Of a stretch of DNA of 64,000 nt, positions 6,572-23,680 are shown piece after piece. The DNA lies in NCBI GenBank assembly GCA_900319865.1, contig ONQD01000005.1, positions 186,001 to 250,000 on the forward strand, read 5' to 3'. This DNA comes from an uncultured Bacteroidales bacterium (GTDB lineage Bacteria; Bacteroidota; Bacteroidia; Bacteroidales; P3). Under the pieces are notes generated by a model. It was not told the DNA's origin. It worked only from the letters and a program-made list of their open reading frames with translations, and made no database searches. Made by a program: the position numbers and the translations under genes. Position 1 is the first letter of the stretch. Every line of letters starts with the position of its first letter.

Positions 6572-6640
6572 ATTCTTACAACCACTATATTTCATTTATT
6601 ATCACATCAACCCACATATATTATATGCCTTTCCTTATTT

Positions 6641-6947: not shown

Positions 6948-8282
6948 TCATTTGTTAACGTCGTTATCTATTACTTCCCAATAACCGCCTTTATCTGGCC
7001 CCACACGACGTAGCAATCCCTTTTCTTGGAGTTTTTTGATGTTTCTCCATACAGTCGTTCGCTCAAGGCTTAATTGTTTTGTGATTTCATCGTAAGTTAG
7101 ATACTTGTTTTCTTTAATAAGGTGCAGAATGCCTTGTTGTGTCTTGTTTGTTTTTTCAGTTGCATTTTCAGTTGCATTTTCAGTTGCACTTACATGGTCA
7201 ATTTGTACACTCGCAGGGAAGGTGATTCGGATAAAGTTGTCGGTAAAACGGAAACAATTTTCACCATAAGCACGAAGGATACGGGGTATGCCAGAGCCCA
7301 ATGACTCCACTATGTCAAGGTCGCGATAAATACGCATCAGCTCTTTGTTGCGTGGGATGGAAATACCAGTAAAGAACTCCTCTCTACTGAGCGATTCAGG
7401 AAGTCTGCCTGCAGAGGTGATTTCCAGCCTATCGGGGAAAATCTCAAACTTGGGTGGCACTTCAAAGGAATAGTCATTATGCACGATGGCATTGATGACT
7501 GCTTCGCGCACCGCCACCCTGTCCCAGAGAGGCGTTTCGACCCGTTCCATAGGTGTAATTCTCGCAGCCGTCTTGTTCTCTATCTCCAACTTTGTCAGTA
7601 CGCTTTTGGTGGCTTTGATAAGTGAGCAGTATCCATACTCGTTGTTCTCTATCAAGTCACATCGGTCGAGGCTGGAATATTTTGCCACCTTTATGGAGTT
7701 ATTGTTCTCGTCTGCCAACAGGTAGGCCACATAGTTGTACTCACCCTCTTTTGTTATCAGCTCGAGGCTACGCTTAAAATTGTCGTTTAGGCGCTTGCCC
7801 CGTTCATCATAGTATATGCGCAGTTGCTCAAATGACAAATCTTGACGATTCGAGACAATTTTGCTGATGGAATTGCGTGTACGCATAGCAAATAGTCGGT
7901 CAATCTGCTCTTGTGGCAATGCTTCAACCGAAGTACCCACACGAATAAATGCACCGCGAGGAGTCATGCCATACTTGGTTTTAAAGTATGGTTTATCCAT
8001 ACCGCTGGCCACTGTAACCTTCACAATAGACTTGCCATCTTTTGTCTCTGTTGCAATATCGAACAATCCCATCGCCGAGGGTGATATGTTGTTTTTTATT
8101 CTATCCTTCAGCTTAAGCATGCAACCATCTGGATCCTCCACACCAACAGTATGCCCTTCTTTGTCGATGCCAATATAGATGTAACCACCTTCCTTATAGT
8201 TAAGGAATGCAATTACCTCTTTTTCTATGTCAAGGTCGTCAGTCAGTTCTCGTTTGAATTCTATGCGGTTGGTCTCAGTCAT
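6948..8282 (-). CDS. AlbA_2/Schlafen-type ATP-binding transcriptional regulator with ATEN repeat linker
   Basis: A 444-residue protein from the ATG at 8282 (MTETNRIEFKRELTDD). The first 120 residues are an AlbA_2 (Schlafen AAA_4-like) domain, with IEFKREL and the GGYIYIGIDKEG strand-loop. The middle holds the HATPase-like part (REAVINAIVHNDYS, then FPDRLEITSAGRLP). A short linker of ATEN units, encoded by 12-base repeats at about 7153-7192, leads to a winged helix (LTYDEITKQLSLERTTVWRNIKKLQ). It is the last gene of the defence region, 120 bases after the Dam-type methylase and on the same strand. Such proteins are usually taken as defence-island regulators or effectors. A second family member lies in the same operon at 16.7-18.8 kb. 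Confidence 0.85.
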   Translation of the reverse strand: MTETNRIEFKRELTDDLDIEKEVIAFLNYKEGGYIYIGIDKEGHTVGVEDPDGCMLKLKDRIKNNISPSAMGLFDIATETKDGKSIVKVTVASGMDKPYFKTKYGMTPRGAFIRVGTSVEALPQEQIDRLFAMRTRNSISKIVSNRQDLSFEQLRIYYDERGKRLNDNFKRSLELITKEGEYNYVAYLLADENNNSIKVAKYSSLDRCDLIENNEYGYCSLIKATKSVLTKLEIENKTAARITPMERVETPLWDRVAVREAVINAIVHNDYSFEVPPKFEIFPDRLEITSAGRLPESLSREEFFTGISIPRNKELMRIYRDLDIVESLGSGIPRILRAYGENCFRFTDNFIRITFPASVQIDHVSATENATENATEKTNKTQQGILHLIKENKYLTYDEITKQLSLERTTVWRNIKKLQEKGLLRRVGPDKGGYWEVIDNDVNK

Positions 8283-8402
8283 ATTTGATAGTTTTTGCTG
8301 TTTTATATTGCCTATATCTGTTTTATTTGGGCAGATTGAAGGCATATTGTGCTGGTAGTATATCTGTTTTTTCTTTAGTCCTTACTGTAATCTCATTTTT
8401 AT

Positions 8403-9308
8403 CTATGGGGTTTGCTTAGCATCTGTTTCAATATACTGAATTTTTTTCTTGAATTTATATTGGGGCGGGTTTTTGCTTGGATCAAAGACAATAGTCGGAC
8501 TTAAAAAAATCAGCTCTTTGCCTTTCTTTGCAGAAAAAGCCGTATGATTTATACAGTATTCAATTATTTGACAATCTGAATATAGTAATCTTATTTCATC
8601 TGCGTCATCGTATGAAACAATCCAATTCATATTGTTCAAACTCTTTATTTTATCGCAAACAATCTTGTGATGATCTTTTTTGTAATATTGAGTGTATAAA
8701 GACTGTCCTTTCGCATAGTATGGTGGATCAAAATAAATGAGCATATTGTGAGGATTGGAATTCTTTATAAAATCCATATCTAACAAGTTTAACGCGTCTT
8801 CATTGAATATACTAATATTCATCTTCAGCTTGGCAATTTTATCAATCCGATTAATTAATTCGTTTTTATTGTAACGACAATCGAGTTTGTATTGACCACC
8901 TTGATTGATTCCTCCAATGACACCACCTTTGATAATTCCAGATCGATTAGTTCTATTTAAAAAGAATGTCGAAAAACCTAATTCTAACAAATCGCAATTT
9001 TCTTTGTTCTTTTGTACATTTCTTTGTCTTTTCCATTCGTCTATTGTAACTGGGGTGTTCCGAATCATCTCACATAATAGGTCAGATTTATTCAACACAG
9101 AATACCAAAAGGCATAAATAGAGCGGTCATTATCATTAATTGTAATATGCTTGACAAAACCTTCAAACAACAAAAACAAAGCAACTGCCGCGCCACCAGA
9201 ATATGGCTCGACAAAATGCTCTGTTATTGAATTGTCAGAACAAATTTTAGCAATAAATGGAGCTAACTTTTTTTTCCCTCCAGGATATCGTAACGGTGAA
9301 TAGTTCAT
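8403..9308 (-). CDS. D12-class (Dam/DpnM-type) DNA adenine N6-methyltransferase
   Basis: A 301-residue protein. Motif I-like YPGGKKKL is at residues 8-15, VEPYSGGAAVAL at 33-44, and the catalytic DPPY motif at 194-197 (IYFDPPYYAK). This is the class that makes N6-methyladenine in short sites such as GATC, but the site cannot be read from sequence. The gene is AT-rich. Its ATG overlaps the stop of the ParB-like gene by four bases (ATGA), so the two are translationally coupled. No matching restriction enzyme of the usual kind is adjacent; within the operon it could protect host DNA or mark it for the ParB-like or ATPase proteins. Confidence 0.92.
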   Translation of the reverse strand: MNYSPLRYPGGKKKLAPFIAKICSDNSITEHFVEPYSGGAAVALFLLFEGFVKHITINDNDRSIYAFWYSVLNKSDLLCEMIRNTPVTIDEWKRQRNVQKNKENCDLLELGFSTFFLNRTNRSGIIKGGVIGGINQGGQYKLDCRYNKNELINRIDKIAKLKMNISIFNEDALNLLDMDFIKNSNPHNMLIYFDPPYYAKGQSLYTQYYKKDHHKIVCDKIKSLNNMNWIVSYDDADEIRLLYSDCQIIEYCINHTAFSAKKGKELIFLSPTIVFDPSKNPPQYKFKKKIQYIETDAKQTP

Positions 9309-10864
9309 TCAGCTTTGTTTATATTGTTGCTCAAATATACAAATAATGGTTCAAGATCAGACCAAGCTTTTTTATTACTTTCAATATCGGCGAAGTATTT
9401 AAGATTATGAACACTCAAGTCAAGTGAGGATTTTATTATATCAATTTGATTCTTGACAATCTTATAAGTTTGGGTGTCCATATCATTTGCCAGTTTTGTA
9501 GTTAATACAAAATCCAACATTGGCTTAAGAGAAGCAGACGAGTAATCGGCCTTGTCAATATTAAATTTAAGAATGGTCATTATCTCATCTTCGGATATGG
9601 GTTCTTGTAAATCGTGCTTGCCTTTCAAATATTTTATAAGTGTCTTTACTTTAGCTTGTCCATTCTTTTTTGCATCTTGCCCAACTTTATTTGAATATTC
9701 TTCAAATAGTTGATTTTGCTCGATAAAGTAATAGAGAGATTGTTCCAAATATGTTCTTAACAATACTGAAAAAGCGTACTGTTTATCATTTGTAAGACCT
9801 CTTAATTCCGCAAATAACGTATCCAGTTTGTTATTATCAAAGAAAATCTCTTTGTCTCTTGGTATTACATAATTGTCAAACGATGATTTTTTATTCTTTC
9901 TCCTTTTGGTAATTTTGTTTTTGGCCGCTTCTAAGTCTTGTCTGTCAATTTCATTACTTCTAGTTGTGTTTTCATCAAGACCAACAGACATATCCACATT
10001 AGGAGATTTTTCCAAGTCTTTTATTAAGGATTCTATCTCGCCAGTCGTATTATATTGTCTTGAAAAACTTTCAGCATTCAACAATTCGTTAAACGCCACT
10101 AATACCCTTTTTTCAAATTCCTCCTCTGGCAGTTTAATGATTAGGTCGCCATTATCATTATTAAAGCTGATGCCAAGGAATCGTTTTGTTTCATCAACAT
10201 TACAAAAACGTTCCAAATTAGTGAGATTAAAGTTATCTGTATTAATGTGAATGCTTTCTTTATCTAATATAGATTGTGCTTCCTTGAAAAGATTATATAT
10301 TTTAATCGTCTTCAATACATTTCCTCTAGTTTCATTCAAGACTTCACAGATGTCATCAACAGAAAGGCCATCTTTCCAATACATGTCGGAAACAAAAGAA
10401 TACTGATTCCCTGTTTCCCATCTTTTTACGGCATCTCCCTTGTGCCTTTCATATATGATTGGATTTGCTTGTAATCTGTTAGGGGCTATATGACATCTTA
10501 TTTTGTAATCATCAATAGGGATCTTGTTTTCAACGATGTTTCTCAACAATACATTTGCTTTTGCCGTTGAAAGGTATTTTTTAGGATTTTGTAAAAGTTT
10601 TAATGATGCCACACGCCTATTTCCCTCAAGCACTACCTTTTTATCGTTTTCAATACAAATAATAGGTTCTTCTCCGACAAAATACCCTTCCTCAGATATT
10701 TTCTTAGCCAAATCGTAAATCTTCTCGTTTTCAATGAGTAATTTCATGATTTGTGTCTGATTCAAATTGTCATTTGAATAGCGAATACGAGGATTGTTGA
10801 CGTCTAATTGCAACGTGCTCACCTTGTATTCAAAACTTTCCCATGCTGAATAATCTATATACAT
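9305..10864 (-). CDS. ParB-like nuclease-domain protein (EGNRR motif)
   Basis: A 519-residue protein. Residues 15-120 form a ParB/Srx-like domain: LQLDVNNPRIRYS, then PIICIENDKKVVLEGNRRVA with the EGNRR nucleotide-binding motif at 80-84. A helix-turn-helix-like segment (GLSVDDICEVLNETRGNVLKTIKIY) follows near residue 175, as in ParB. Then comes a K/R-rich region near residue 310 and an all-helical C-terminal half that I do not recognise. ParB-fold domains in defence genes act as ATPases, CTPases or nucleases; which applies here is unknown. It overlaps the Dam-type methylase by four bases and begins 3 bases after the HNH remnant. AT-rich like its neighbours. Confidence 0.8.
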   Translation of the reverse strand: MYIDYSAWESFEYKVSTLQLDVNNPRIRYSNDNLNQTQIMKLLIENEKIYDLAKKISEEGYFVGEEPIICIENDKKVVLEGNRRVASLKLLQNPKKYLSTAKANVLLRNIVENKIPIDDYKIRCHIAPNRLQANPIIYERHKGDAVKRWETGNQYSFVSDMYWKDGLSVDDICEVLNETRGNVLKTIKIYNLFKEAQSILDKESIHINTDNFNLTNLERFCNVDETKRFLGISFNNDNGDLIIKLPEEEFEKRVLVAFNELLNAESFSRQYNTTGEIESLIKDLEKSPNVDMSVGLDENTTRSNEIDRQDLEAAKNKITKRRKNKKSSFDNYVIPRDKEIFFDNNKLDTLFAELRGLTNDKQYAFSVLLRTYLEQSLYYFIEQNQLFEEYSNKVGQDAKKNGQAKVKTLIKYLKGKHDLQEPISEDEIMTILKFNIDKADYSSASLKPMLDFVLTTKLANDMDTQTYKIVKNQIDIIKSSLDLSVHNLKYFADIESNKKAWSDLEPLFVYLSNNINKAE

Positions 10865-10867
10865 GAT

Positions 10868-10984
10868 TTATTGGGTTTTTCTTAAATAAACTTTATTATA
10901 ATGCTTATTGCCACGCGATTCTGAGACAATATGCTCAACACTTTTTGAGCTTGAGAAATCTTTATGACAGAAAATGCATTGCAT
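10868..10984 (-). pseudogene. 38-codon remnant of an HNH-nuclease gene between the ATPase and ParB-like genes
   Basis: This small reading frame encodes MQCIFCHKDFSSSKSVEHI followed by VSESRGNKHY and a short basic tail. The CxxC pair and the SVEHI-x-x-ES-x-GN pattern are the N-terminus of HNH endonucleases of the type that begin CIFC...S-EHI-P-E-LGN. The rest of a normal HNH protein (second CxxC, second histidine) is missing, so it is a truncated remnant or a very short HNH-like peptide. It sits 28 bases after the ATPase stop and 3 bases before the ParB-like start, in perfect operon spacing. An ATPase next to an HNH gene recalls Septu (PtuA/PtuB), but the ATPase has not been shown to be PtuA. 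Confidence 0.6.
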
Positions 10985-11012
10985 ATATAATGAACACTTT
11001 TCCAATGATTAA

Positions 11013-12893
11013 CTATGCTAAAGCTTCTTTCAGAGTTCCTTTATCTATATATGTGTTTGCAAGAAACATATCTTTTGTAATGCCTAACACACTAATTTTC
11101 ATTAAATTGTCAATTATCCTACCTAATTTAGTTTCACTAACAAGTGGAGGTGTTCCATGAGCTATCCTAGGTTGAAAACTGTAAAAATCTACCCCATTGT
11201 ATTGCCATGTAATTATTTTGCAAGTGGGGTCTTCGTTTTTACCACGTATCATATCTTGGGTTAATTGAAATTCAAATGAATAATTCGTACTTGGATGCTT
11301 GAAAATGAGCTTGCTATTTTTGTCCACAAGAAGAATCTTAACTTGTATGTTGAGTTTTTTCAACTCGTCAATTAACCCAAACGCTTTAAGTAATTCTCGT
11401 TTATAAATTGGGAAAGATGTTTTTTGATAATGAGCTGCAGGGTTTAGTATCATTAGTTTCGACTGTTTAAACATATTATCAATGCGAGGTGGTATGGAAT
11501 TCGTATACTTTAACAATCTATCCCACAGTTTATTCAATTCAATAAATTTCCCATCTGCATTTTTGCAATATTCTTCTGGAAGATAATCGGTCACGAATTC
11601 CTCTAATGTTTTTCTTATATAAAGAGCTGCAACTGTGTAATCTCGGGCAGTAAAATACTTTTTTGCTTTCACATAAGAATCTGATTCACCGTCAATAATC
11701 TCAGGTGCTTCATGTTTTGGAATACCAGTTTCTCCTACATACATTTCCTTTCTGAGCCATAAAACATCTTGTTTATGCTGCTTGATTTTATAATCGACAA
11801 AGTTGTATAGATTTTTGTCGTGTATGAGAAAAAGTATCTGATATTTTGTTGCATACTCTTTTAGTAACAGATCCAACAATAGCTCTCGATTACTCATATC
11901 TAAACTAATCATCAAATCATCGAGAACAAGGACATTCAAAGCATTAGGTGCAGTAATTGTGTTTACACGATAATCTAATATTGTTAATCGAATTGCAGTT
12001 GCTAATGCGGATAGCTTTGCTTCATTCAAAAAGACATGGGGCTTCTTTATATGAACACTTTTCCCATTATATTTTGTTATTTCTAATTCTATTTTGAATG
12101 GAGACCACTCATAGTTCTTATCTTTCTTTACATGACTGGGGTGTCCATAGGTCAGTTGAAAATCCATATCATAGCCGAGTTCATTAAGTCGACTTTTGGC
12201 ATTTACATTAATAAAATCCATTAAATTTGTAAACTCTGAATTAAAATGGGCTTCAAAGTTGCAAAACTCTTTATATTGTGGGCTATTTTTATATACAAGA
12301 ATTCTGTCTCCTTTATAATTGGTTGTGAATCCTGGACCATCTTGATACTCTGACCACATTGAACTTGCGTTTGCAAGAATCTTCCCTTTTATTTTAAAAC
12401 TGGCAAAATTTACATAAGGCAATATGGAATATACAAACACATCGTACAAATCTGGTGTTTCGCTATTTCTGAATTCTTGAAATTTAAAAATCGACTGATA
12501 GTTTATAAAATCTGAAACCTTTCGTGACTCTTGAGCATATGAATCTCCGCAGATACGATTATCTAACAATGATAATTCATAAGTCTTGGCGTTATCATCT
12601 TGGATTTTAATGTATGAATTTGAGTGTTCTTTTCTAGAACTGATTTCGGACATCAGAGGTGCATATATATTCACCAGCGACTCGTCACTTTTATCTATAG
12701 GAAGAAAGTATTTCCCTGTTTCAGAAGGGTCTTTTAAAGATGCTTCTAATAGAGTATATAATCCCCAAAATATTGAGCTTTTTCCGCTTCCATTTTCACC
12801 ATAAAGCAACAGATGCTTCCCTTCAAGATGAATGGTTTCTTCTTTACTGAAGAACTTAAAGTTAGATATAGTAATGTTATTGATTTTGCTCAT
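11013..12893 (-). CDS. RecF/SMC-like AAA ATPase of the defence operon
   Basis: A 626-residue protein starting with the RecF-type first strand (INNITISNFKFF). Walker A GENGSGKSS is at residues 33-41 and Walker B (LNVLVLDDLMISLD) near residue 320, followed by LFLIHDKNLYNF, the switch region. There is no long coiled coil between the motifs, unlike true SMC or Rad50 proteins. A helical segment from about 395 (KKYFTARDYTVAALYIRKTLEEF) resembles one found in several defence ATPases. The last 130 residues are not recognised. The ATG overlaps the methyltransferase stop (ATGA). It probably senses invading DNA or powers an effector; partners could be the HNH remnant or the ParB-like protein. Confidence 0.85.
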   Translation of the reverse strand: MSKINNITISNFKFFSKEETIHLEGKHLLLYGENGSGKSSIFWGLYTLLEASLKDPSETGKYFLPIDKSDESLVNIYAPLMSEISSRKEHSNSYIKIQDDNAKTYELSLLDNRICGDSYAQESRKVSDFINYQSIFKFQEFRNSETPDLYDVFVYSILPYVNFASFKIKGKILANASSMWSEYQDGPGFTTNYKGDRILVYKNSPQYKEFCNFEAHFNSEFTNLMDFINVNAKSRLNELGYDMDFQLTYGHPSHVKKDKNYEWSPFKIELEITKYNGKSVHIKKPHVFLNEAKLSALATAIRLTILDYRVNTITAPNALNVLVLDDLMISLDMSNRELLLDLLLKEYATKYQILFLIHDKNLYNFVDYKIKQHKQDVLWLRKEMYVGETGIPKHEAPEIIDGESDSYVKAKKYFTARDYTVAALYIRKTLEEFVTDYLPEEYCKNADGKFIELNKLWDRLLKYTNSIPPRIDNMFKQSKLMILNPAAHYQKTSFPIYKRELLKAFGLIDELKKLNIQVKILLVDKNSKLIFKHPSTNYSFEFQLTQDMIRGKNEDPTCKIITWQYNGVDFYSFQPRIAHGTPPLVSETKLGRIIDNLMKISVLGITKDMFLANTYIDKGTLKEALA

Positions 12894-15800
12894 ACTCTCG
12901 ACTTTGAATGTATTTGATAAAGAAAGTTCTTACTTCTCGTTTCCAAAAGCATAATACGTTGGCGTATCGGATTGTCTGATTGTTGGTACCATAGGTAGAA
13001 TTTCTCAATTTCCTTAGAGGTATCCATAGACATGTTCTCCCAATGATATGACTTCAAATATGAAATGACATCAATCTTGTTCTCCTTAACATGTTGCTCA
13101 AAATACAATTCATATATAGCCATATCAATAATTTCCATAATATGCGGGATAATCCTATCGTTTGAGGTATGAGAAAGCACGTCAGGATTCGATTCATCTT
13201 TCAAATATACAATAAAATCGACCAATTGATCAATAAAGGATTGTACTTCTGTTGTAATATAATAATCAGGTACAGGAAAAGGATTGACATAGTCCGTTTT
13301 AAACGTGTAATATCCTCCCCTAAGTACATATCCGGTATTTTGTATGAAAAACCAAAAAAGACGCGAGTTGAGCAATGCCATCCAAAACTTGTAAGACTCT
13401 TTTGTGTTCTCTTTTTTGATATATCCATATATCTTAGTCGTGGAATAAAACTCACCGTTCTTGTCATAAGCAAAGTTACCACCTAAAGAGATTTCCGGTG
13501 CTACAAGTTTTTCATTATCAAAAAGAACTAAGTTTTTTGGATAAATATATCTATACCAGCAATCATCATCTCTCAATCTTCCATGTTCTCTTTCTCTCAA
13601 GATCTCTTCACACTCTTTCAGATATTCATATCCGTGTGGAAATTGTTCAGACAATTCATCCACAGAGTACAATATAGCTTTCCCATTCTGAATTATATAC
13701 GGGAAGACAACATATCTATCTGTTTTAATGGTATCATACCTATGCACGTCTTCTCCTTTAAGAAGTGGTTTAACCAATCCCTTCTCAATTTTTACTTTAC
13801 GACCTAACTGTTTTGACTCTCCTATGATGAATTTCTCATCCATTTGGCAATCATTAATGAAATAGACATCATCTTTACTAGTTTGCAAACCACAAAATAT
13901 TCTATCAAAGACATCTTCTATTCTTCGATGATGTTGTTCAAGTCTGTTGAGAATTTCAGAGACTGTATTATTTGTCAAAACCCACTGGCTTTCATTCAAC
14001 TTTTCACTGTTTATGATGGTTGAATGTTCGTCATTTAAGGAATCGAGATACTGCTTTAGTTCGTCATTGGAAGATAAATCTCTATCTAATTCAATGTATT
14101 TCAGATAATCGCTGTTGGGTGAGAACCATTGTAAACCTGTGTATGTAGATGCATTAAAAACTTGATATGCACCAAAATTAATAATCTTGGATGCTGATTT
14201 TGTTTTAGATACAAGTCTTCTCAGACCTTTTCCAAAGGCGGAATTTGTCCATTTGGTCGGCATGATATAATTAATGATACCTTGTTGGTTTATTAAGTCA
14301 AACCCTTTTTCGGCAAAAGTAACATACAAATCGAAAGAACCGGTGGTTGATTTGTAATGTTTTGATAAATAATCTGCAAATTTCGGATTGGATTCTCTAA
14401 TTCCTTGAATTCTTAAATATGGCGGATTCCCAATAACAATATCAAATCCATTGTTAATTCCGAACATCCATTCTGGATCAAAGAATGACGCTGTGGCGTT
14501 TTGGTCAAACATATCCCAATCCAAAAGCATCAGATGGTCTTCATCGCTTACTGCACGCAATCGTTTCAGCTCTTCAACCATTTGGATACGCAGTTGCGCT
14601 ACGCGCTCCTTGTATTTCCTTTTGGTCTTTACAGTTTTTGCCCCAAAGATTTTGTGCTTCGCCACTTTCATTTCGTCCTGCATCCGCTTAATGTCATCGG
14701 TGACAAACAAGTTGGTCTGGTTATGAAGGCCAATCAGCGTATTGGCTGCAACAAACTTGGCTTCGAGGTTTGGGAGCGGGCGGATGCCGAAGTTGTCAAC
14801 AGGGTCGGTATTAGTCTTCTGGTCAACCACCAACGAGATAAAGAAGCGGAGTTTGCTTATTTGGATGGCGATAGGCTGGATGTCAACACCATAGATGCAG
14901 TTCTCTATCAGATAGAGTTTGCGGGCATAGTCGGGACGGTTAACATTCTCGTTGAAGCTACGTTCGATGTCGGCCACCATCTCTTTGCGTTCCTCGTCTG
15001 TGGCGTTGAGGTAGGCCTCTGAGGTCTCGCTGATGGCATTTTTGACCATCATATCTTTCCACTCCTTGTTGTCTGGGTCGATGCGGTTGAGGATATGCAC
15101 CATCTGTTGCAACATGCCCATAGGGAAGGCTCCGGAGCCACAGGCGGGGTCGAGCACCTTGCACTGGTAGATGGATTGCAGGATGGCTTTGTGTTGCTCG
15201 TCGGTGAGGTTGGGCTCTTCGTCAGTGTATTGCACTAGTTTGCGATACTCCGGTTCCAACTTCTCGCCTACTGTGCGTTTCAGGTGCGCCACAAGACTCT
15301 CATCAACCATATACTGCACAATCTCGCGCGGTGTGTAGAACGAACCTGTCTGTTTGCGGGCGGTGGTTTGCGTCTCGGGGTTGTAGGAAGCCAGTAGATT
15401 CTCGAAGACCTTACCCAACAACTCCGGGTCGAGCGATACATCCTGGTCGAATGGTGTGTTTTCCTCGACGGTGAAGTTGTAACGCTTCAGAATGTCGATG
15501 ATGCCACGGGCACTGACCTTCTTCTTCCGTTTGTCGCCATACCATTCGGAGAGGTCGATATTACGGCCTACATCCTCTCCAAAGAAAAGATAATCGGGCA
15601 CTATCAGCTGTTTGGCAATCTCCTCACGGTCGGTGAAAGCATCAAAATATTTGCCATTATCCTTGTCATCGAGACAGTCGAACAGACCGCCATTGAGAAA
15701 GGGGACATACCTGTTGGCCAACTCGACGAACAACTGTGGGTCTTGGAACAAATCCTTGTGTCGCATCAGTTTGTTGTTGTCATAGTCGCTGCGATCCTTT

Positions 15801-16672
15801 CGGAAGCGACGCTCGGAGATGGTGTCTTTTCCTTCGGGAGTGATAGGACTGTTGAGCATCGCGAAGAAGAGGTTCTGAAGGATACCCTTATAGTAATAGC
15901 TGTTGTCGGCTTTACCAAAAAGGGTAACCTTGGCATTAGGGGTAAAACTCTTCAACAGGTGATCGCTGATGTATTTTTCGTCGAAAAACTCATCGGGTAC
16001 CAGATGCCGCTGCTTGATAAACCATACAAAGATAAGGCGGGTGATGAGACGAATCATCGCCTCGGAGTTATATGCCTCGTTGTCTGCTTTATCATCCAAG
16101 ACGTTGGGGAACCTGACCACCTTGACTGCCCAAGCATACCAGTCGGAAAGCTCTTGATAGAAGGCCTTTGTCAGCACCTCGACAGAGAAACGGCTACGTA
16201 GGTCTTCGATGCTGACCACCCGGCCGGCTGCATTGAGATACTTGTTGGGAGTATGATAGGATATGCCTTCGCCGAGATAATAGGAGTAGCGATGAGGATT
16301 GGAGAAGGTGCGTTGCACTTTTGCGGAGCCTTCCTTTTGTTCGAGAGTAATCTCGATAAGGGAGAAACGATAGTTGCTGTTGTCATCCTGCGGGACAAAG
16401 AAGACCAACGCCCGCTCACAGAACTCGTCGGCAAGCATACGGAAAGCCTCTTTGGTCAATCCCACACGGGCATCGCTCACAGAAGAATGCAGCACCTCGA
16501 AAACTACAAGCTCCAACGAATTGCATTCGCCCAGTCGTGTCACTCGCTGCGTGTATTGGAATTGCTTTGGGTTGGCAAGTGTGGTTTCCTCCTGAATAAA
16601 GTCTTCGGGAAGGAAATTCGTTCGGAGGAACTTTACCAGTTCGTTGCGGTTGTATGCTTTATTGAATTCCAT
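12890..16672 (-). CDS. Eco57I-like adenine methyltransferase of 1260 residues (type II/IIG-like)
   Basis: The N-terminal 400 residues precede the methylase core. TGSFYTPREIVQYMV lies near residue 440, SAM motif I VLDPACGSGAFPMG near 505, YGVDIQPIAIQISKLR near 610 and catalytic motif IV IGNPPYLRIQG near 747. The remainder is a target-recognition region with the GYVLRGGYYTFKTDYVNPFPVP and LNSRLFWFFIQNTG patterns of Eco57I/TaqI-type enzymes. No PD-(D/E)xK motif is evident, so cleavage is probably by the PLD-helicase upstream. Base composition drops about 35 bases before NPPY: 14461-14520 has 26 G+C of 60, 13201-13260 has 15. Starts 5 bases after the AlbA_2 gene. BREX PglX is similar in outline, but no pglZ is present. 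Confidence 0.9.
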   Translation of the reverse strand: MEFNKAYNRNELVKFLRTNFLPEDFIQEETTLANPKQFQYTQRVTRLGECNSLELVVFEVLHSSVSDARVGLTKEAFRMLADEFCERALVFFVPQDDNSNYRFSLIEITLEQKEGSAKVQRTFSNPHRYSYYLGEGISYHTPNKYLNAAGRVVSIEDLRSRFSVEVLTKAFYQELSDWYAWAVKVVRFPNVLDDKADNEAYNSEAMIRLITRLIFVWFIKQRHLVPDEFFDEKYISDHLLKSFTPNAKVTLFGKADNSYYYKGILQNLFFAMLNSPITPEGKDTISERRFRKDRSDYDNNKLMRHKDLFQDPQLFVELANRYVPFLNGGLFDCLDDKDNGKYFDAFTDREEIAKQLIVPDYLFFGEDVGRNIDLSEWYGDKRKKKVSARGIIDILKRYNFTVEENTPFDQDVSLDPELLGKVFENLLASYNPETQTTARKQTGSFYTPREIVQYMVDESLVAHLKRTVGEKLEPEYRKLVQYTDEEPNLTDEQHKAILQSIYQCKVLDPACGSGAFPMGMLQQMVHILNRIDPDNKEWKDMMVKNAISETSEAYLNATDEERKEMVADIERSFNENVNRPDYARKLYLIENCIYGVDIQPIAIQISKLRFFISLVVDQKTNTDPVDNFGIRPLPNLEAKFVAANTLIGLHNQTNLFVTDDIKRMQDEMKVAKHKIFGAKTVKTKRKYKERVAQLRIQMVEELKRLRAVSDEDHLMLLDWDMFDQNATASFFDPEWMFGINNGFDIVIGNPPYLRIQGIRESNPKFADYLSKHYKSTTGSFDLYVTFAEKGFDLINQQGIINYIMPTKWTNSAFGKGLRRLVSKTKSASKIINFGAYQVFNASTYTGLQWFSPNSDYLKYIELDRDLSSNDELKQYLDSLNDEHSTIINSEKLNESQWVLTNNTVSEILNRLEQHHRRIEDVFDRIFCGLQTSKDDVYFINDCQMDEKFIIGESKQLGRKVKIEKGLVKPLLKGEDVHRYDTIKTDRYVVFPYIIQNGKAILYSVDELSEQFPHGYEYLKECEEILREREHGRLRDDDCWYRYIYPKNLVLFDNEKLVAPEISLGGNFAYDKNGEFYSTTKIYGYIKKENTKESYKFWMALLNSRLFWFFIQNTGYVLRGGYYTFKTDYVNPFPVPDYYITTEVQSFIDQLVDFIVYLKDESNPDVLSHTSNDRIIPHIMEIIDMAIYELYFEQHVKENKIDVISYLKSYHWENMSMDTSKEIEKFYLWYQQSDNPIRQRIMLLETRSKNFLYQIHSKSRV

Positions 16673-16677
16673 AACTT

Positions 16678-18798
16678 CTATTTGTTTTTGACGGCGGTAT
16701 ATTTCTGGTTAGGATGTTTTATCATCTCTGGTATGGTAAAGAAAAGTCTTCTGTCTTCGATTAACGAACTTATATATAAGTACCTAATAGAATGAGGTTT
16801 CCTATGCAAAATATTCGCAATCTCATTGATGCTTAACGGCTCGTATGTACATAATTCCACAATCAAATCTTTCATTTTCTTTGAGGACTCCCATTTTTTT
16901 AGGTTCCTGCACCTTTCCAATAACTCATCGGGTAGGGCTATACCATTTTCTCTGGCAGCATTACCATTTTCTCCGATAGCATTACCATTTTCTTTGGCGG
17001 CATTACCATTTTCTTTGGCAGCATTACCATTTTCTTTGGCAGCATTACCATTTTCTTTGGCAGCATTACCATTTTCTTTGGCAGCATTACCATTTTCTCC
17101 GTCACCTCTACACATTTCTATACCGCCGCCTCTACACATTTCTCCATCAGCTCTACACATTTCTCCATCAGCTCTACACATTTCTCCGATAGCATTACCA
17201 TTTTCTCCATCACCTTTACTATTTTCTCCGTCAGCTCTACACATTTCTCCGATAGCATTACCATTTTCTCCTTCACCTCTACTATTTTCTTCGTTAGAAC
17301 TACTATTGACAAAGTTCTCACCTGCGATGTAATATGTGCTTCTACTTTGGCCCTTTTGTTCTAATAACCCTTTTGTACACATATAGTGTAAGTCATAGGA
17401 TGCTCTCTGATTGTTAATATCACTATTCAACTGTCGGTAGGTAATATTGTCTATTGCCCCAACTTCGCGCACAAAGACCAGAGCCAATCTTTGTTCATTG
17501 TTCAAAGAATAGTTGACATAGGATGCGAGCCACTGGAGGGTCTCTTTATCCAACAAATGGTGCAATAGCAGGCGGGCGGTAAACTGATTGGCAGAGCGAT
17601 TGGATTCAAAAGTGGGAGGCATCAGTCCAGCCTTCTTCATGTGTCCACGCATAGACCTGATGCCAGAGCCTTTGGTTTCCGCCAAATTTGTATCGTGGAA
17701 TATGGTGCTGATGAATGGGTTGCGCTGTACAGACCCAGGTTCACCAAGTGTTTCGGGTGATTTTAACGAAAAACCGGGATTAATTACTTCCAAGCGATTG
17801 GAGTATCTGATAATCTGGATAGGTTGGTTAAGGCGAAATGAACAATGGATAAAGGCATTGACCAACACCTCGCGAAGGACATCGTCGGGCAAGTCGATGG
17901 GTGTGTTAGCTTGCAGTTTTCCTTTGGGCAGTTCAAAGCCTTTGGGCAGATCGTCTTTGACAGCATTAAGAGCACGGTTGACTAACAAGATAAGTGGTCC
18001 GCGCATATCGATAGTGGCCTCAAATCGCTTGTCAGGATCTTCAATCCATCTGTTTCCGGGCACTCTAATATAGTCAACTCTTAATGCTGGCAGCAAACGA
18101 CGCAATGACATGGACTTGCCAAACACAACAAGACCCGTATATGTCAATACATACTCTCCGTTTTTCTCTTTTTCACACGCCCTTAACGCCAAGAGAAGGT
18201 CTTTGTCGTCGTAGGACAATTCTTCGGCATTGGGATTGACCCGTGCGCGCAGTTTACGGTAATGAGCAACAGCATTCTCGTCTATATCATCGAGGGTGGC
18301 TCCTTTGACAACGGTACTATCGAAACTCTCGGCCGAGGAATAGAACACCCGCATATCGTCTTCCGTGCATTTTTGATCGGAAGCCCCCACTCGGCGGAAT
18401 GCTCCGCTTGGAAGTCCTTTGTTCAAAAAATACACCGGCTTCTGAGAATCAGGCAGCTCATCTATTTTCACAACGATTACAGTCTTCCCGTCAACGACCT
18501 CGGTCTCAACCTGAGGCCGAATGTGCATGTTCAGCATTGAACTGCACTTAGAGATCAGGTCATTCTGGATTTTATCCGGATTATCTATGTTCTCTGGCTC
18601 ATAAACAGGCAGACCATCATGAAAACCAGTACGAACAGCACCTAACAACAGGTATCCTCCACCCAAATTGGGTTCGTTGGCAAAAGCACATACTGTTTCC
18701 ATGATGCCCTTGTCTATCTCTGAGGCTTTCTTGGCTTCTATTCTGACATTTTCGTCAATAGAATTGAGCTGTTCAAATAATTCCTGTGCTGTTTTCAT
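16678..18798 (-). CDS. AlbA_2-type ATP-binding regulator with heptapeptide-repeat linker (706 residues)
   Basis: Residues 1-130 are an AlbA_2 domain (NVRIEAKKASEIDKG, GGGYLLLGAV). The HATPase-like core follows (DVLREVLVNAFIHCSFR near 310, YSNRLEVINPGFSL, then SGIRSMRGHMKKAG). Between about residue 490 and 630 lies a linker made of seven-residue units of two kinds, KENGNAA and GEMCRAD. The last 65 residues are a winged helix (PLSINEIANILHRKPHSIRYLYI). Four-base ATGA overlap with the helicase upstream and 5 bases to the methyltransferase, so it is built into the operon core. By analogy it is a regulator or nucleotide-sensing switch. The repeat makes it unusually long for the family. The repeats are multiples of three, so copy changes alter linker length, not the frame. 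Confidence 0.88.
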   Translation of the reverse strand: MKTAQELFEQLNSIDENVRIEAKKASEIDKGIMETVCAFANEPNLGGGYLLLGAVRTGFHDGLPVYEPENIDNPDKIQNDLISKCSSMLNMHIRPQVETEVVDGKTVIVVKIDELPDSQKPVYFLNKGLPSGAFRRVGASDQKCTEDDMRVFYSSAESFDSTVVKGATLDDIDENAVAHYRKLRARVNPNAEELSYDDKDLLLALRACEKEKNGEYVLTYTGLVVFGKSMSLRRLLPALRVDYIRVPGNRWIEDPDKRFEATIDMRGPLILLVNRALNAVKDDLPKGFELPKGKLQANTPIDLPDDVLREVLVNAFIHCSFRLNQPIQIIRYSNRLEVINPGFSLKSPETLGEPGSVQRNPFISTIFHDTNLAETKGSGIRSMRGHMKKAGLMPPTFESNRSANQFTARLLLHHLLDKETLQWLASYVNYSLNNEQRLALVFVREVGAIDNITYRQLNSDINNQRASYDLHYMCTKGLLEQKGQSRSTYYIAGENFVNSSSNEENSRGEGENGNAIGEMCRADGENSKGDGENGNAIGEMCRADGEMCRADGEMCRGGGIEMCRGDGENGNAAKENGNAAKENGNAAKENGNAAKENGNAAKENGNAIGENGNAARENGIALPDELLERCRNLKKWESSKKMKDLIVELCTYEPLSINEIANILHRKPHSIRYLYISSLIEDRRLFFTIPEMIKHPNQKYTAVKNK
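16940..17290. repeat. In-frame 21-bp tandem repeats (VNTR) in the AlbA_2 regulator gene
   Basis: The plus strand shows five or more nearly identical 21-base units (GCATTACCATTTTCTTTGGCA; one base variants) at about 16980-17100. A second array built on TCTACACATTTCTCC(A/G)TC(A)G units lies at about 17100-17290, mixed with the first kind. They encode KENGNAA and GEMCRAD-type heptapeptides. Near-identity of adjacent units suggests recent slippage or unequal crossing-over. Confidence 0.9.
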
Positions 18799-21700
18799 TG
18801 TAATTCCTCCGCTAAAATAATTGATTCCTCTCCGTCGTCAACATGGTTGTAGGTCTCGATGATACGGGAAATGTAGTAATTGTCGATTTGCTCGGGCAGT
18901 TTCGCATACTCCGATGGCTTGAGTTTGTTAATGAAACGAAGTTCGTATCCGGCAAGGCCATTGTTCTCGATTACATTCTTTAGGTCTTTCAGATAGTCGG
19001 CAGGCAACGCTTTTTTTGTCATCATCACCTTAATCTTCTGTAAGGCTTCGATGCGTTGCTTTTCGTTTTTATCCCGACTGCCGGATTGGAAAAGGTGTAA
19101 TTTTGAGGCTTGATAGATGCTGTCGAAGTCTTCGGATAAGGGCTTGGGCTCTTCAGATGGAAGGGCTTCAAACAGGCAGATGGCCTCTTCTGCCGTCAGT
19201 TGATGGAGGCTACCGTCGTTGTTGCCAATTTTGAACACGAAATCATCGCCCTTTTTGCCAAACAGCAACACACCTTTGCTTGGTTTGTCAACAGAGCGTC
19301 CCGTTTTTGCACGGTGAGGCATCTGCAGAGCCTCATCATAATCTGGTGTGCCTTTCATCGAGTTGAGGAACGTCAAATAACGGTTGTCCCAAGAGGCCTC
19401 TTCGCTCGCAGCACTTTCGCGGCGATATTGTTCGAGGAAGTATGACTGGATTTCCTCGTCTTTGGTCAATGCCTTGGTATCCTCTCCCATGATGGCGTGA
19501 ACCATAGCCATTTTCAGGGTGGAAATCTCTTTGGTGCGGGTTTCTGACTCACCCACATCGGTAGGGAAGTAGTTGTAGATGAAGAGTTGGTCAAACACTT
19601 TTTTGTTCACGCGGTTAATTCGGCCGATACGTTGAATGACACGAGTGGGGTTGTAGGGGATATCATAGTTGATGATGGTTCCTGCACGGTGTAGATTGTA
19701 TCCTTCGGAAATGGCATCGGTTGCAACAAGTATTTTATAGTCGTCCTTCTGGAACGCCTTCTTTTCTCCCGCATTGAAGTTGGCGTTGATGACGGCTTTG
19801 TTTGCCGTGTTGGCATCGGCAGAGGTGTATTTGAATACGGGGAGGCCAGATGACTGCAGCGCTTGTCCCAGATAATTGGCAGTGTCGGCAAACTCGGTGA
19901 ATACTATGATTTTGCGTTTGGGCTCTTTTGTGATTTGTTCGGTAAGGATTTGTTTGAATGAGTCGAGTTTGGGGTCGATTGCAATATGCTGGTCTTTGCC
20001 AAACCATTGTTCGAGAATGCCTTCCAATAGATTCTTGTCAGCATTGATGTCTGCGATAAACTCTTCTTTTTTCAGGTATTTCGATTCAATCTCAAAGAAG
20101 CCTTTCTTTTCGTATTTCTCATAGAGTTCGGTTACCGATTCGTTGCCGTCGTCATCCGTTCCATACAAGTCTTCCACATCAGGAAGATTGCCTTTCTTGT
20201 AGATGGGAACCTTATCGGTGGTTTCAATCCATTTTAGTATATGCTTGGATGACTCAATCATGTATTCCAGAGACTTGCGGAACGCATATTCGGAACTCTC
20301 GAACCGGCGCACCAACAGGCGGCGCATAAATTTGGCCACGTTGGCTTGTCGGCCTAACAGGAGGTTGAGTTCTACGCCAGTTTTCTCTTCCAGTTTTTTT
20401 GCCAATTCCGGTATCAAGTCTTCTTTCAAATACAAAACAGGTGAATAACGGGCAGCCTTAAATCGGTAGGTACCGTCGTCCACATTCTCATCAACGGCAC
20501 TGATTCTGTTTAATGTGGATAGGTACAACTCTTTCAGTTCGCTTAGGTCGTACTCCAGTTCTACGGGGTCGTTGGGGATAACCAGTTGGATATTTTGTTG
20601 ACGGAGGTCTTCGGCATACTCGGGAATTTCCTGCAGGTCAATGCGGGACCGTCGAATCACTAAAGGCGCAATGATGGAACGAATCTCTTTGGCAATTTTT
20701 TCGGCCTCGGCTTTTGCTTCATTGTCTGAAATACGTTTGTCGCGTTGATCTTTTTGTAGTTGTTTGTATCTACTAATCAACTCTTTGAACTTGGCTCCCA
20801 GATTCTCTACCGTCTTTAATGTTGACTTGGTAGGTATTTGGAATAGTTTCACCATTGCGTAGATGTCATCAGGTCGGTTGTTGAAGGGTGTGGCGGTAAG
20901 TAGCATCACCTTGTTGCCGGAACAGAGTTGGTGAAGGATGGCATAGTCTCGGGTGTATTCATTGCGATAACGGTGTGCCTCATCAACAATCACCAAGTAG
21001 TTTTCCTTATTCTTGACGATATGTTCATAGTAAGTAAGAGCCTCTTCAAGTTTTCCTGACGAGAACACGGTTGCGGTGAACCCGAAATCATCACGGTAAG
21101 ATTTCCACTGCTCTTCCAAGTGTGGCGGGCAGACGACAATAGTTCTCAAACGCAAATTGTGTGCAACAGTAGAAGCAATGATACTCTTGCCAAGACCCAC
21201 AACATCCGAGACAATGACACCATTGTGATTTCTTATGGCATTTATGGCCATCTGTACGGCATCGGTCTGATATTTCAGATTGGAGAAACGGCCGTCGGTG
21301 ATGTCGTAAGGGGTCATTATATTGTCGACCGTCGGAATGGTGAAGTATTCTTTCAGCACACGTAAATACATTAGGTAGGGGCTGAAAAGACGGTCGTACC
21401 AGATTTTCTTAATGACTTTAACATCAAAGTCTGGAATAGTCTCTTTGTCTGCAATGACAACTGAACTCTCCCATAATTCGTTGAATATGGCTGATGCGTC
21501 TATGTGGGATTGCTTGTCGTTGAATCGAGAGTTAATCTCCACTCTTCCAGAAAGCCCCTCGTATGAAAGGTTGCTTGAACCGGTTATTACGGCGCCGGGA
21601 ACTTCTCCGTTCTCGTTTACGTCATCGTTATAATTGAAGATATAAAGTTTTGCGTGACATGGGTCCTCTGTCTTACGGATTTCAAGTGAACCGTCTTTTA

Positions 21701-22052
21701 GTTTGTTGTAGAAAAGAGTGAAACCGTCAAGTTTTGTTTGGTTGTCATAAAAGTCCGTCTCGTTGAACAGTCGCACAAAGTTATCATAATATTCTTCCTT
21801 GATCTGAGTGCGTGATTTGTTCGCATTCGCCAAGGAGTCCATTTCTCGTAGATTCTTGGTGATAGTGGTGTCGATATCAAGTCCAACAAGTATTCTTACG
21901 TTTTTATCCTGAAGGTTCTTGGAGATTAGCTTATATCCAGAAAAGTAGAAATACCCAACCAAAATATCAACAGCAATGCTTTTGGGTAAAACACCGTTGA
22001 TTATTTCAGACAGTAGTTTGTTTTGATTTGTGATGAAGCTATTCTGTTCCAT
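18795..22052 (-). CDS. PLD-nuclease / SNF2-like helicase fusion, first gene of the defence operon
   Basis: A 1085-residue protein. Residues 1-200 are a phospholipase-D-fold nuclease: CHAKLYIF (H133, K135), then GSSNLS and GLSGRVEIN with the conserved glutamate. A superfamily 2 helicase follows: motif I SDVVGLGKSIIAST near 285, motif II DEAH (VIVDEAHRYRNE) near 355, motif III LLTATPFNN, and motifs V-VI ATDAISEGYNLH ... IQRIGRINRV. PLD nucleases such as BfiI cut DNA without metal, so this is the likely restriction subunit; only one HxK is visible, so it would work as a dimer. It heads the operon behind a clear promoter and overlaps the AlbA_2 gene by four bases. Together with the methyltransferase it forms a restriction-modification-like core. 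Confidence 0.9.
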   Translation of the reverse strand: MEQNSFITNQNKLLSEIINGVLPKSIAVDILVGYFYFSGYKLISKNLQDKNVRILVGLDIDTTITKNLREMDSLANANKSRTQIKEEYYDNFVRLFNETDFYDNQTKLDGFTLFYNKLKDGSLEIRKTEDPCHAKLYIFNYNDDVNENGEVPGAVITGSSNLSYEGLSGRVEINSRFNDKQSHIDASAIFNELWESSVVIADKETIPDFDVKVIKKIWYDRLFSPYLMYLRVLKEYFTIPTVDNIMTPYDITDGRFSNLKYQTDAVQMAINAIRNHNGVIVSDVVGLGKSIIASTVAHNLRLRTIVVCPPHLEEQWKSYRDDFGFTATVFSSGKLEEALTYYEHIVKNKENYLVIVDEAHRYRNEYTRDYAILHQLCSGNKVMLLTATPFNNRPDDIYAMVKLFQIPTKSTLKTVENLGAKFKELISRYKQLQKDQRDKRISDNEAKAEAEKIAKEIRSIIAPLVIRRSRIDLQEIPEYAEDLRQQNIQLVIPNDPVELEYDLSELKELYLSTLNRISAVDENVDDGTYRFKAARYSPVLYLKEDLIPELAKKLEEKTGVELNLLLGRQANVAKFMRRLLVRRFESSEYAFRKSLEYMIESSKHILKWIETTDKVPIYKKGNLPDVEDLYGTDDDGNESVTELYEKYEKKGFFEIESKYLKKEEFIADINADKNLLEGILEQWFGKDQHIAIDPKLDSFKQILTEQITKEPKRKIIVFTEFADTANYLGQALQSSGLPVFKYTSADANTANKAVINANFNAGEKKAFQKDDYKILVATDAISEGYNLHRAGTIINYDIPYNPTRVIQRIGRINRVNKKVFDQLFIYNYFPTDVGESETRTKEISTLKMAMVHAIMGEDTKALTKDEEIQSYFLEQYRRESAASEEASWDNRYLTFLNSMKGTPDYDEALQMPHRAKTGRSVDKPSKGVLLFGKKGDDFVFKIGNNDGSLHQLTAEEAICLFEALPSEEPKPLSEDFDSIYQASKLHLFQSGSRDKNEKQRIEALQKIKVMMTKKALPADYLKDLKNVIENNGLAGYELRFINKLKPSEYAKLPEQIDNYYISRIIETYNHVDDGEESIILAEELQ

Positions 22053-22086: not shown

Positions 22087-22118
22087 GCAAAAATACTTAT
22101 TTTTTTTGAATTGGCAAA
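22087..22118 (-). promoter_or_regulatory. Promoter of the defence operon
   Basis: On the minus strand TTTGCC (-33 region, about 22114-22118) and TATTTTTGC (-7 box, 22087-22095) are spaced as in Bacteroidota housekeeping promoters. The start would be near 22081, giving a leader of about 30 bases before the helicase ATG at 22052. No other clear promoter is seen down to the Dam-type gene. Confidence 0.7.
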
Positions 22119-22475: not shown

Positions 22476-23672
22476 TTAACGGTCACTAATAAATGTTTTT
22501 TGGATTCTGGCTTCTCCGTAAAAAGCGCAGATTTCAGCGGCGAGGGTGTTGAGGTTGTGGAAGCGGCTGTAGTCGCTGTCAGCCGGAGCACATGAGACTC
22601 CGCCCATCGTATCGATATTCCAAGGGGCTAATATAAGCAGATGCCCTCGAAGGCAAGCCTCGAAGCGTCGGCGTTCGGGTTTCCATTAGGTGCCGATGGG
22701 CTCTTTTTGTAGGTGTATCAAAGGGTATCCCTTTTCTAAGCATTCGTTTTTCATCATTAGTTCGCCACGCGAGATGCCAGGGGTGACGAGGACAGTCTGC
22801 CCATTGAGCAAGGCAGACTCCCATTCGGCATGTTGGCGGGCATAGTCGTCGGTGGTCTCGTAGGGCAGAAGGCTGACGGGATGGCGACGGTGACACTGCA
22901 CTTGCATTTTGCGTGCCCAGCGCAGAAGGAAGAGGTTGCCGAAGGCACCGTAATCACGTTGTCCTATCGTCACATGGAGGCACCGCTGCATAAAGTCCGG
23001 GAAACGATGTCGAAGGAGGGCACGACGGGGATTGTCGTTAACATAGGCTATCATTGCCTCGCGGTGACGGTTGTCGAGACAGATGGTGTCATCGTAGTTG
23101 TCGTCGAAGAGGGGTTGCTGTTGTCGGCTCACAAGAGCATAGTACTCCTGCCGCTGTTTTTTTGAGAGGTTGCGGATGAGGGAGCCTTCATCGGGATGGT
23201 CACGAATCTTTTGGAGTAGCCATGCGGGGGCATTTTTACCAATAGTGGCGACAGAAATCGGTCGGGAGGTAGAGGGGGGTAAGCCTTGCAACTGTTGCCA
23301 ACGGCTTGTGCAGAAAGCTTTAAAGGCTTGAATGATGTCGCCTAGGTTCCATGTCATGGGTTCTAATACCTCGATAACACCGTGGAAATGGTCGGGCATG
23401 CAGACACAGGCGTGTACTGCTACGTGATTGCCGTGGGTGGCTTGTATGACGGGTGTTTGTTGCCAGGCTTGTTGTATCTCTTTGCCGAGAGGGGTGAGGG
23501 ATAGGGTTTCGTGACCGAGAACGGACGCGGGGGCGTGGTTGGATTCGTGACCGAAATCGGTCACGAAATGTGAGAGCAGGTGGGCACGGCCGCTCACTAC
23601 TAGCGTGATGAGGTAGGTGCCACGACCATAGTAGTCGTGGCCGGGATTGCGGGGGCGGTAGGTGGATGGCAT
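22476..23672 (-). pseudogene. REP-associated tyrosine transposase (RAYT-2), interrupted by one stop codon
   Basis: From the ATG at 23672 (MPSTYRPRNPGHDYYGRGTY) the protein has the Y1/RAYT layout: YLITLVVSGR first strand, the HUH-type motif MPDHFHGVIEV and a downstream region with candidate catalytic tyrosines (RQEYYALVSRQQ). It stops at a TAA at 22686-22688 after 328 residues, yet the same frame continues 69 codons (WKPERRRFEACLRG ... FHNLNTLAAEICAFYGEA) to a TAA at 22476-22478. The continuation is protein-like and completes a longer C-terminal domain seen in Bacteroidales RAYTs, so a single nonsense mutation is likely. It lies 8 bases after the GH92 gene. RAYTs mobilise REP palindromes; copies of a GTGACCG/CGGTCAC element lie inside and downstream of it. 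Confidence 0.75.
23546..23565. repeat. Palindrome inside the RAYT-2 coding region
   Basis: CGTGACCGA-aa-TCGGTCACG: two 9-base arms with a 2-base centre. A related half element CGTGACCGAGAACGG lies at 23510-23524. The core is the same as in the dispersed AATCGGTCA elements. Confidence 0.7.
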
Positions 23673-23680
23673 ACAGCTAC

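Follow-up and report, generated by a model that had tools for sequence, protein, structure and literature searches.

A Bacteroidales restriction operon with a predicted ABC ATPase-HEPN RNase guard and an adjoining PD-lambda-5 system

The operon and its genes

We analysed a stretch of 64,000 nucleotides from an uncultured Bacteroidales bacterium (assembly GCA_900319865.1, contig ONQD01000005.1, positions 186,001 to 250,000; hereafter the window), in which seven genes at 8403-22052 form an operon on the minus strand. Among them, a helicase (HEL), an N6-adenine methylase (MT) and an ABC ATPase (ATP) recur together in other genomes, and we give a probability of roughly 0.58 to the reading that they form an ATP-dependent restriction-modification (RM) system with an attached RNase guard resembling PrrC and RloC. 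The initial annotation, made from the sequence alone, had listed the same genes in the same order, and open reading frames (ORFs) and Pfam searches confirmed this list with named domains, PARB excepted. The features are as follows.

18795-22052, minus strand: HEL, 1085 residues, with PLDc_2, SNF2 and Helicase_C domains (Pfam) and an HxK...GSSN nuclease
16678-18798, minus strand: ALB1, a protein with SLFN_AlbA_2 and RecG C-terminal domains (Pfam), in the slot between HEL and MT
12890-16672, minus strand: MT, 1260 residues, with Eco57I and TaqI_C domains; a chimeric Eco57I/PglX-like N6-adenine methylase with NPPY at residue 749
13100-14452, minus strand: target-recognition part of MT, residues 741-1191, inside a tract of 33% G+C
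12893-13099, minus strand: C-terminal extension of MT, residues 1192-1260
11013-12893, minus strand: ATP, 626 residues, a RecF/Rad50-like ABC ATPase (AAA_15) with a C-terminal HEPN-like domain; the predicted RNase guard
11334-11741, minus strand: HEPN-like domain of ATP, residues 385-520, with R427-x3-E431...H488
10868-10978, minus strand: HNH remnant, a 36-residue CxxC...EHIVSES peptide (HNH N-terminus) inside the gap between ATP and PARB
9305-10864, minus strand: PARB, matching PD-Lambda-5_A (PADLOC, E 1.1e-42)
8403-9308, minus strand: DAM, a Dam-type adenine methylase (MethyltransfD12) matching PD-Lambda-5_B (PADLOC, E 2.4e-115)
6948-8345, minus strand: ALB2, a second AlbA_2 protein with a winged helix, taken here as a neighbour
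22088-22118, minus strand: exact match to the Bacteroides-type promoter motif TTTG-N19-TAnnTTTG, 35 bases ahead of the HEL start

Intergenic distances are -4 bases for HEL/ALB1, 5 for ALB1/MT, -4 for MT/ATP, 148 for ATP/PARB, -4 for PARB/DAM and 57 for DAM/ALB2. The four-base overlaps or gaps under 30 bases first described are thus found throughout the seven genes except between ATP and PARB, where the HNH remnant lies in the gap. The 120 bases once given for the second AlbA_2 gene apply if it starts at the ATG at 8282, and the distance is 57 when counted from its ORF start at 8345. A promoter had been placed at 22087, consistent with the candidate motif at 22088-22118. This motif, which we take to be the Bacteroides promoter consensus, has five exact matches across the whole window versus 1.33 expected. 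A sigma-70 scan was uninformative (69 sites versus 41.8 +/- 7.7 in shuffles).

The helicase-methylase core and its optional slot

In the loci fetched for comparison, genes are ORFs picked by length, with split or frameshifted genes counted as pieces. The HEL, MT and ATP labels come from profiles of the same families, the MT label including proteins that match only the recognition end. Some loci were fetched twice (L062 = L187 = L237, L085 = L136, L089 = L145, L050 = L163 and L199 = L146); identical copies were dropped from the half-MT comparison, the held-out tail comparison and the linkage counts (116 HEL-MT loci and 105 ATP ORFs), and kept in the counts of collection loci and of the ATP and HEL alignments.

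HEL is predicted to be both restriction motor and nuclease. Its best PADLOC matches are DrmD (1.3e-39) and C3a139 HKD+Snf2 (9.5e-38), and it scores 166 bits against the NCBIfam DrmD model, whose cut-off is 610. The aligned helicases shown keep HxK and GSSN and do not keep the D of HKD. With E up to 1e-60, relatives were found in 44 of 295 genomes of the order and in 37 of 385 in a sample of the phylum, the window's own genome included in both; the flanks of G149, G010, G161, G279, G017:C91 and G098:C33 in the order search lie outside the survey. The closest HEL in a plasmid collection, on a plasmid of Parabacteroides distasonis, is 64% identical.

HEL and MT are contiguous in 116 unique fetched loci, 26 of which have an intervening gene. 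A domain scan of 21 such slot genes (that of the window included; L200, L207, L225, L229 and L231-L233 not taken in) identified AlbA_2 in eight, YhcG/DUF1016 in five, KilA-N in four, and RhuM and Fic in one each. The AlbA_2 regulator that the initial annotation described as embedded between restriction and modification genes is present here, but the slot is optional and different genes can occupy it. The slot gene moves on its own: ALB1 is 61-70% identical to the slot genes of L034, L057 and L157, although HEL and the helicase of L057 share only 32% identity. RhuM relatives also occur in L034, two genes on from MT, and in the HEL-MT slot of L036. Within ALB1, about 17 copies of a 21-bp unit (window 16937-17294) encode in-frame heptapeptide repeats of the NGNAAKE type, and changes of copy number keep the frame because the unit is a multiple of three. 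The genome of L054 has a second HEL-MT pair far from the first, on contig C59 (L054:7646-14234), with the helicase gene broken into two ORFs.

The ATPase as part of the core

The ATPase had first been grouped with the ParB-like and Dam genes. Our results place the boundary elsewhere: ATP is part of the restriction core. Across the fetched loci as a whole, MT lies no more than three genes upstream of 97 of 105 ATP ORFs and immediately before 87 of them; in seven of the MT-linked loci, MT matches only at its recognition end. Within the order, ATP relatives occur in 12 of 295 genomes, own included. In the 11 others, MT is next upstream in 10 and third upstream in G116. Eight of them carry an ATP of full or near-full length; in G085 the gene is split, in G090 it is shortened, and in G041 it is a fragment of 73 residues. 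A collection scan with an ATP alignment seeded with MT-linked ATPs, in which 80 of at least 157 relatives were kept, placed MT within four genes upstream in 74 of 80, with HEL in addition in 53. The record titles of these 80 include Bacteroidota, Chlorobiaceae, Poribacteria, Latescibacterota, Desulfobacterales, Sulfurovum, Rhodoferax and Pseudanabaena. In L142, L143, L151, L153, L155, L160 and L175, ATP follows a protein that matches only positions ~780-1127 of the MT profile, with no helicase in the upstream genes shown.

Counted by helicase, in contrast, ATP is optional: it is present in 5 of 21 complete loci of the order (6 of 22 when L086, a HEL-search locus with ATP that this count omits, is added) and in 9 of 23 of the phylum sample. 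The genes directly after ATP are very mixed, since 43 genes matched 30 Pfam families, and none of the 25 families shown was found in more than four genes. Relatives of the HNH remnant, searched with its 36 residues, were met in only three other loci, as an HNH_5 protein after an ATP fragment in L091 and directly after ATP in L131 and L150. A search of the plasmid collection with ATP gave two records and was uninformative; a phage collection gave none, and PHROGs had no match for ATP.

The C-terminal domain of ATP is likely a HEPN domain

The N-terminal part of ATP is an ABC head, matched by AAA_15 in Pfam (4e-11) and, on a structural model with mean pLDDT 74, by SMC and Rad50 structures at E ~1e-9. 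No CxxC zinc hook was found in ATP, and 1 of 89 aligned ATP sequences carries CxxC anywhere. R427 and H488 never vary in this alignment (86 distinct sequences), and E431 is present in all sequences but one, so that the triad is complete in 88 of 89; the exception, L140, has Asp for Glu. A Ser directly precedes the His in 71 of 88. When the domain was aligned alone in 66 copies, R, E and H were the only invariant columns, suggesting an active site. This set comprises the window copy and 65 of the 88 others, with domains outside 110-165 residues, near-duplicates and three more omitted and L140 not in it. For RloC, the available text of PMC2610378 gives the rule Arg-X3-Glu-X36-52-His, often with Ser before His, and reports that a change to Ala at any of the three abolished the nuclease; the ATP triad agrees with that of RloC and PrrC in order and in R-x3-E spacing.

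Pfam searches with the 66 copies (E up to 0.1) matched DUF4145 in 20 and HEPN in 10, the next family reaching three. DUF4145 is a family of the HEPN superfamily. The domain model has a pLDDT of 82.6, and its top Foldseek match by probability is the HEPN protein 1o3u (0.90, TM 0.54), followed by 2q00 (probability 0.85), whose title gives no function. A PDB sequence search with the domain returned 12 weak matches up to E 1, none of them HEPN by title. Taken together, the C-terminal domain is likely HEPN, and we infer RNase activity for ATP.

A chimeric methylase whose tail co-varies with the ATPase

MT is a chimera of two lineages. Among 107 MTs compared, that of L034 is 81% identical over residues 1-690 and 29% over 720-1260, whereas those of L062 (36% vs 60%) and of L100, from Paludibacteraceae (35% vs 59%), show the reverse; the window ATP is 55% identical to the ATP of L062 and 64% to that of L100. 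Identity switches at about residues 735-749, beside NPPY at 749 and near window 14,430-14,470, where G+C drops from ~0.5 to 0.33 and then stays low to 8.4 kb. A donor of low G+C for the recognition part and ATP is plausible, because the HEL, MT and ATP genes of L100 have 31-33% G+C. In L065 (9598-11447), a 309-aa copy of the recognition part lies on the opposite strand downstream of the methylase, with inverted repeats of 321 bp (95%) and 36 bp and a 202-aa gene that looks serine recombinase-like by eye, an apparent invertible recognition cassette.

We compared distances in 59 loci with HEL, MT and ATP. Those of MT residues 1-150 track HEL (r 0.94), while residues 741-1130 show r 0.04-0.19 with HEL and a partial r with ATP, given HEL, of 0.13-0.14. 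Residues 1192-1260 track ATP with a partial r of 0.65 (0.64 without the three loci that had suggested the idea), versus 0.22 for residues 1131-1191, and the co-variation of this tail is highest with the ABC head (ATP residues 1-190). Every MT segment was above chance in Mantel permutations, which treat loci as exchangeable. When MT was cut in halves, HEL followed the N-terminal half (0.82) and not the C-terminal one, and the partial correlation with ATP was 0.33 for the C-terminal and 0.19 for the N-terminal half, a pattern unchanged under other cuts and after dereplication. Adjacency within the gene is insufficient as an explanation, because the partial correlation between the two halves is 0.09.

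The presence of the tail also goes with ATP. In a two-fold held-out comparison, the ~120-residue end of MT scored in 72 of 73 ATP-linked MTs versus 4 of 17 ATP-less ones, three of these four reaching 15-17 bits with C-termini that stop soon after a shared YELY-type helix; the held-out halves are not separated by relatedness. This comparison and the next one cover MTs of at least 900 aa, without loci cut within 1 kb. In newly fetched loci, the 70-residue extension was found in 5 of 5 with ATP (4 of 4 without L237, identical to training locus L062) versus 1 of 15 without; L218 is 88% like a training sequence, and three of the five positives are well separated (54-56%). We propose that the last ~70 residues of MT would tether the guard. 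After the tailed methylase of L223 (7556-12523) come a 108-aa gene and a 426-aa gene, with only two short ATP matches (E 0.005-0.008); the 426-aa gene is metallo-beta-lactamase-like, and SIR2-like and HerA-like genes come next (labels by eye).

PARB and DAM are a PD-lambda-5 system

The ParB-like and Dam genes, at first counted as part of an unnamed combination, match PADLOC PD-Lambda-5_A and PD-Lambda-5_B, adjoin with a four-base overlap and form a named system. The only Pfam row for PARB is HSF_DNA-bind (E 0.024), with no ParB match; the ParB-like label comes from the initial annotation and from that of some plasmid relatives. Close PARB relatives (E up to 1e-15) are rare, with 2 among the 295 genomes of the order and 4 among the 395 of the phylum sample, own included in both. 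The four relatives (L084, L184, L185 and L186) each have a DAM relative beside them, and neither HEL nor ATP was found in the stretches read around them; in L184, a 626-aa type II methylase lies ahead of the pair. PARB and DAM relatives were found in none of the fetched stretches of 116 other unique HEL-MT loci. We therefore rejected the pair as a part of the core and consider it a neighbour, in line with the rule that the initial annotation itself had given, that such a part should be met beside the helicase and methylase elsewhere. PD-lambda-5 is here an independent defence, which probably shares a transcript with the core. The view that another system has been joined to a restriction core is borne out, the added system being PD-lambda-5; what changed in the earlier interpretation is the boundary, with ATP on the side of the core.

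Comparison with known systems

Eight proteins of the window were scanned with Pfam, NCBIfam and the best 25 PADLOC matches, and the rows shown contain no HsdS, PglZ, BrxC, Dnd or Ssp match, as the initial annotation had stated, nor any match to DUF499. Its claim of an unnamed combination stands in so far as no single named system tested covers the operon, and falls for the PARB-DAM part. BREX was rejected on PglZ and BrxC, and type I RM on HsdS and HsdR (no match to either in Pfam or the best 25 PADLOC matches). DISARM was also rejected: there is no DrmB match, the DrmA match covers only helicase regions of HEL, and the DrmD score lies well below its cut-off. Class 1 DISARM shares similarity to a DrmD-like helicase and a DrmMI-like methylase, here with partial, low scores.

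In BREX-Related (BR) systems, a helicase works with an N6-methylase and an ATPase, and type 2 has DUF499, with DUF3780 in 98% of taxa, according to the available text of PMC12839542. Type-2 BR has an HKD-SNF2 helicase and an N6-adenine methylase in common with the present operon, which carries an ABC ATPase in place of DUF499; it was rejected, as neither DUF499 nor DUF3780 was matched in the eight proteins (Pfam, E up to 0.1). Hma likewise has helicase, methylase and ATPase in a row, but its ATPase, HmaC, is a DUF499 protein, and the portions available of PMC12839542 and PMC8565338 give HmaB as an m5C methylase. The HmaA match is confined to the helicase C-lobe of HEL (4e-26), and Hma was rejected, with no HmaB or HmaC among the best 25 matches of MT (of 45) and ATP (of 35), none at E up to 1 for ATP 150-626, MT 1-420 or MT 850-1260 (PADLOC), and no DUF499 in Pfam. 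PbeABCD and the CxC ABC ATPase systems combine an HKD-SF2 helicase with an ABC ATPase (PMC10853773, in the part available). PbeA is the best match of the first ~340 HEL residues and PbeC matches weakly (0.002), but PbeB and PbeD gave no PADLOC row, and the methylase here is an Eco57I-type adenine methylase. Septu (PtuAB) has an intact HNH partner, of which only the 36-residue remnant is met here.

The type Ic RM system EcoprrI with PrrC, and RloC, have in common with the present operon an ABC ATPase with a predicted HEPN-type RNase in a restriction operon and the R-x3-E...H motif; PrrC and RloC are anticodon nucleases. The present operon differs from them by its PLD-SNF2 helicase and Eco57I-type methylase, the lack of a detected HsdS and the matching methylase tail. 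RM-linked ABC-HEPN guards are already a known kind: the available text of PMC3710099 (Anantharaman et al.) proposes, as a general idea, HEPN guards linked to RM systems, RhuM accompanying some of them. In our literature search, we found neither a set of helicase, methylase and ABC/HEPN protein nor the methylase tail, and the ATPase clade may have been described before. The HEL-MT-ATP family occurs in records of several phyla and is not covered by the named-system models tried. If the proposed reading is right, scanning model by model would break up a single functional unit, giving a 'type IIG methylase' and orphan genes.

A possible guard mechanism and its alternatives

To our knowledge, the way in which a lethal RNase is kept silent by its restriction system has not been resolved for PrrC-type guards, and the MT tail, which appears and disappears with the guard, is a small, testable candidate for the holding contact. 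The ABC-HEPN nuclease PrrC is kept silent by the type I RM enzyme to which it is linked, until a phage anti-restriction peptide frees it (PMC2610378 and PMC3710099, available portions). In the proposed reading, MT would place N6-methyladenine on host DNA, its exchangeable target-recognition part setting the site, and HEL would translocate along unmarked DNA and cut it through its PLD domain. By analogy with PrrC, ATP would be kept silent through contact with the ~70-residue MT tail. A phage inhibitor or DNA damage may disturb the MT-HEL complex, releasing ATP or altering its ATPase state, and the freed HEPN domain would then cut RNA, probably tRNA, and stop the infection.

Several observations weigh against this reading. 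Complete HEL-MT loci mostly lack ATP (16 of 21 in the order, 14 of 23 in the phylum sample), so the core can work without it. Other MT segments also correlate with ATP (partial r 0.27 for residues 1-150), and strong tail scores occur without ATP in L053, which has no ATP match downstream, and in L223. A recombination boundary near residue 1191, with the tail adjoining ATP, could produce co-variation without contact. Regarding the domain, the Glu-to-His spacing of 54-70 or 112-131 residues (56 in the window ATP) is longer than the 36-52 of RloC. Its Pfam matches reach E 3e-4 at best, which is weak, and there is none for the window copy. The Foldseek E-values are not significant (0.64 for 1o3u), with an unrelated protein ranked first by E-value, and ATP matched no PrrC or RloC model in Pfam or NCBIfam, its best PADLOC rows being AbiLi and mad3.

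ATP could instead be a working restriction subunit, loading or looping DNA like the DUF499 protein of BR systems or BrxC, with a C-terminal helical domain that is structural and not an RNase. Its four-base overlap with MT, the SMC and Rad50 heads as its best structural matches, and the combination of helicase, N6-methylase and ATPase in BR systems (PMC12839542, available text) would fit such a role; we nevertheless consider it unlikely, as ATP is optional (5/21 and 9/23) and the restriction of invariance to R, E and H in the 66 copies points to an active site. Even less probable is an origin of ATP and a former HNH gene as an ATPase-nuclease pair of the Septu or retron kind, which would leave the present ATP without effector. 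The HNH remnant after ATP, the HNH relatives after ATP in L131 and L150, PtuA models matching the ATPase head at ~1e-7 (PADLOC) and a structural match to retron IA (9n69_A) speak for this, but remnant relatives in only three other loci and a triad kept in 88 of 89 sequences speak against it. Finally, since defence genes cluster and the cargo directly after ATP is so mixed, the three genes might be chance neighbours in a defence island; we rejected this as very improbable, the present counts disfavouring it through the 97/105 linkage in records of several phyla and a tail that predicts ATP in newly fetched loci.

Returning to the guard reading, a broader view of MT as a modular hub is tentative, with the odds somewhat against it. 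Its first ~150 residues would be fixed to HEL, its recognition part freely exchanged, and its last ~70 residues a tether inherited with the RNase guard as a cassette of tail plus gene. Guards might then be plugged in and out by recombination inside the MT gene, and tails might accept other partners, as in L223.

Genes flanking the operon

Just outside the operon start, an ORF at window 22686-23834 carries an MPDHFHG motif, which we take to be typical of Y1 (REP-associated) transposases. On the other side, beyond ALB2, a RhuM gene lies at window 5660-6595 (PADLOC PDC-S05, E 5e-128).

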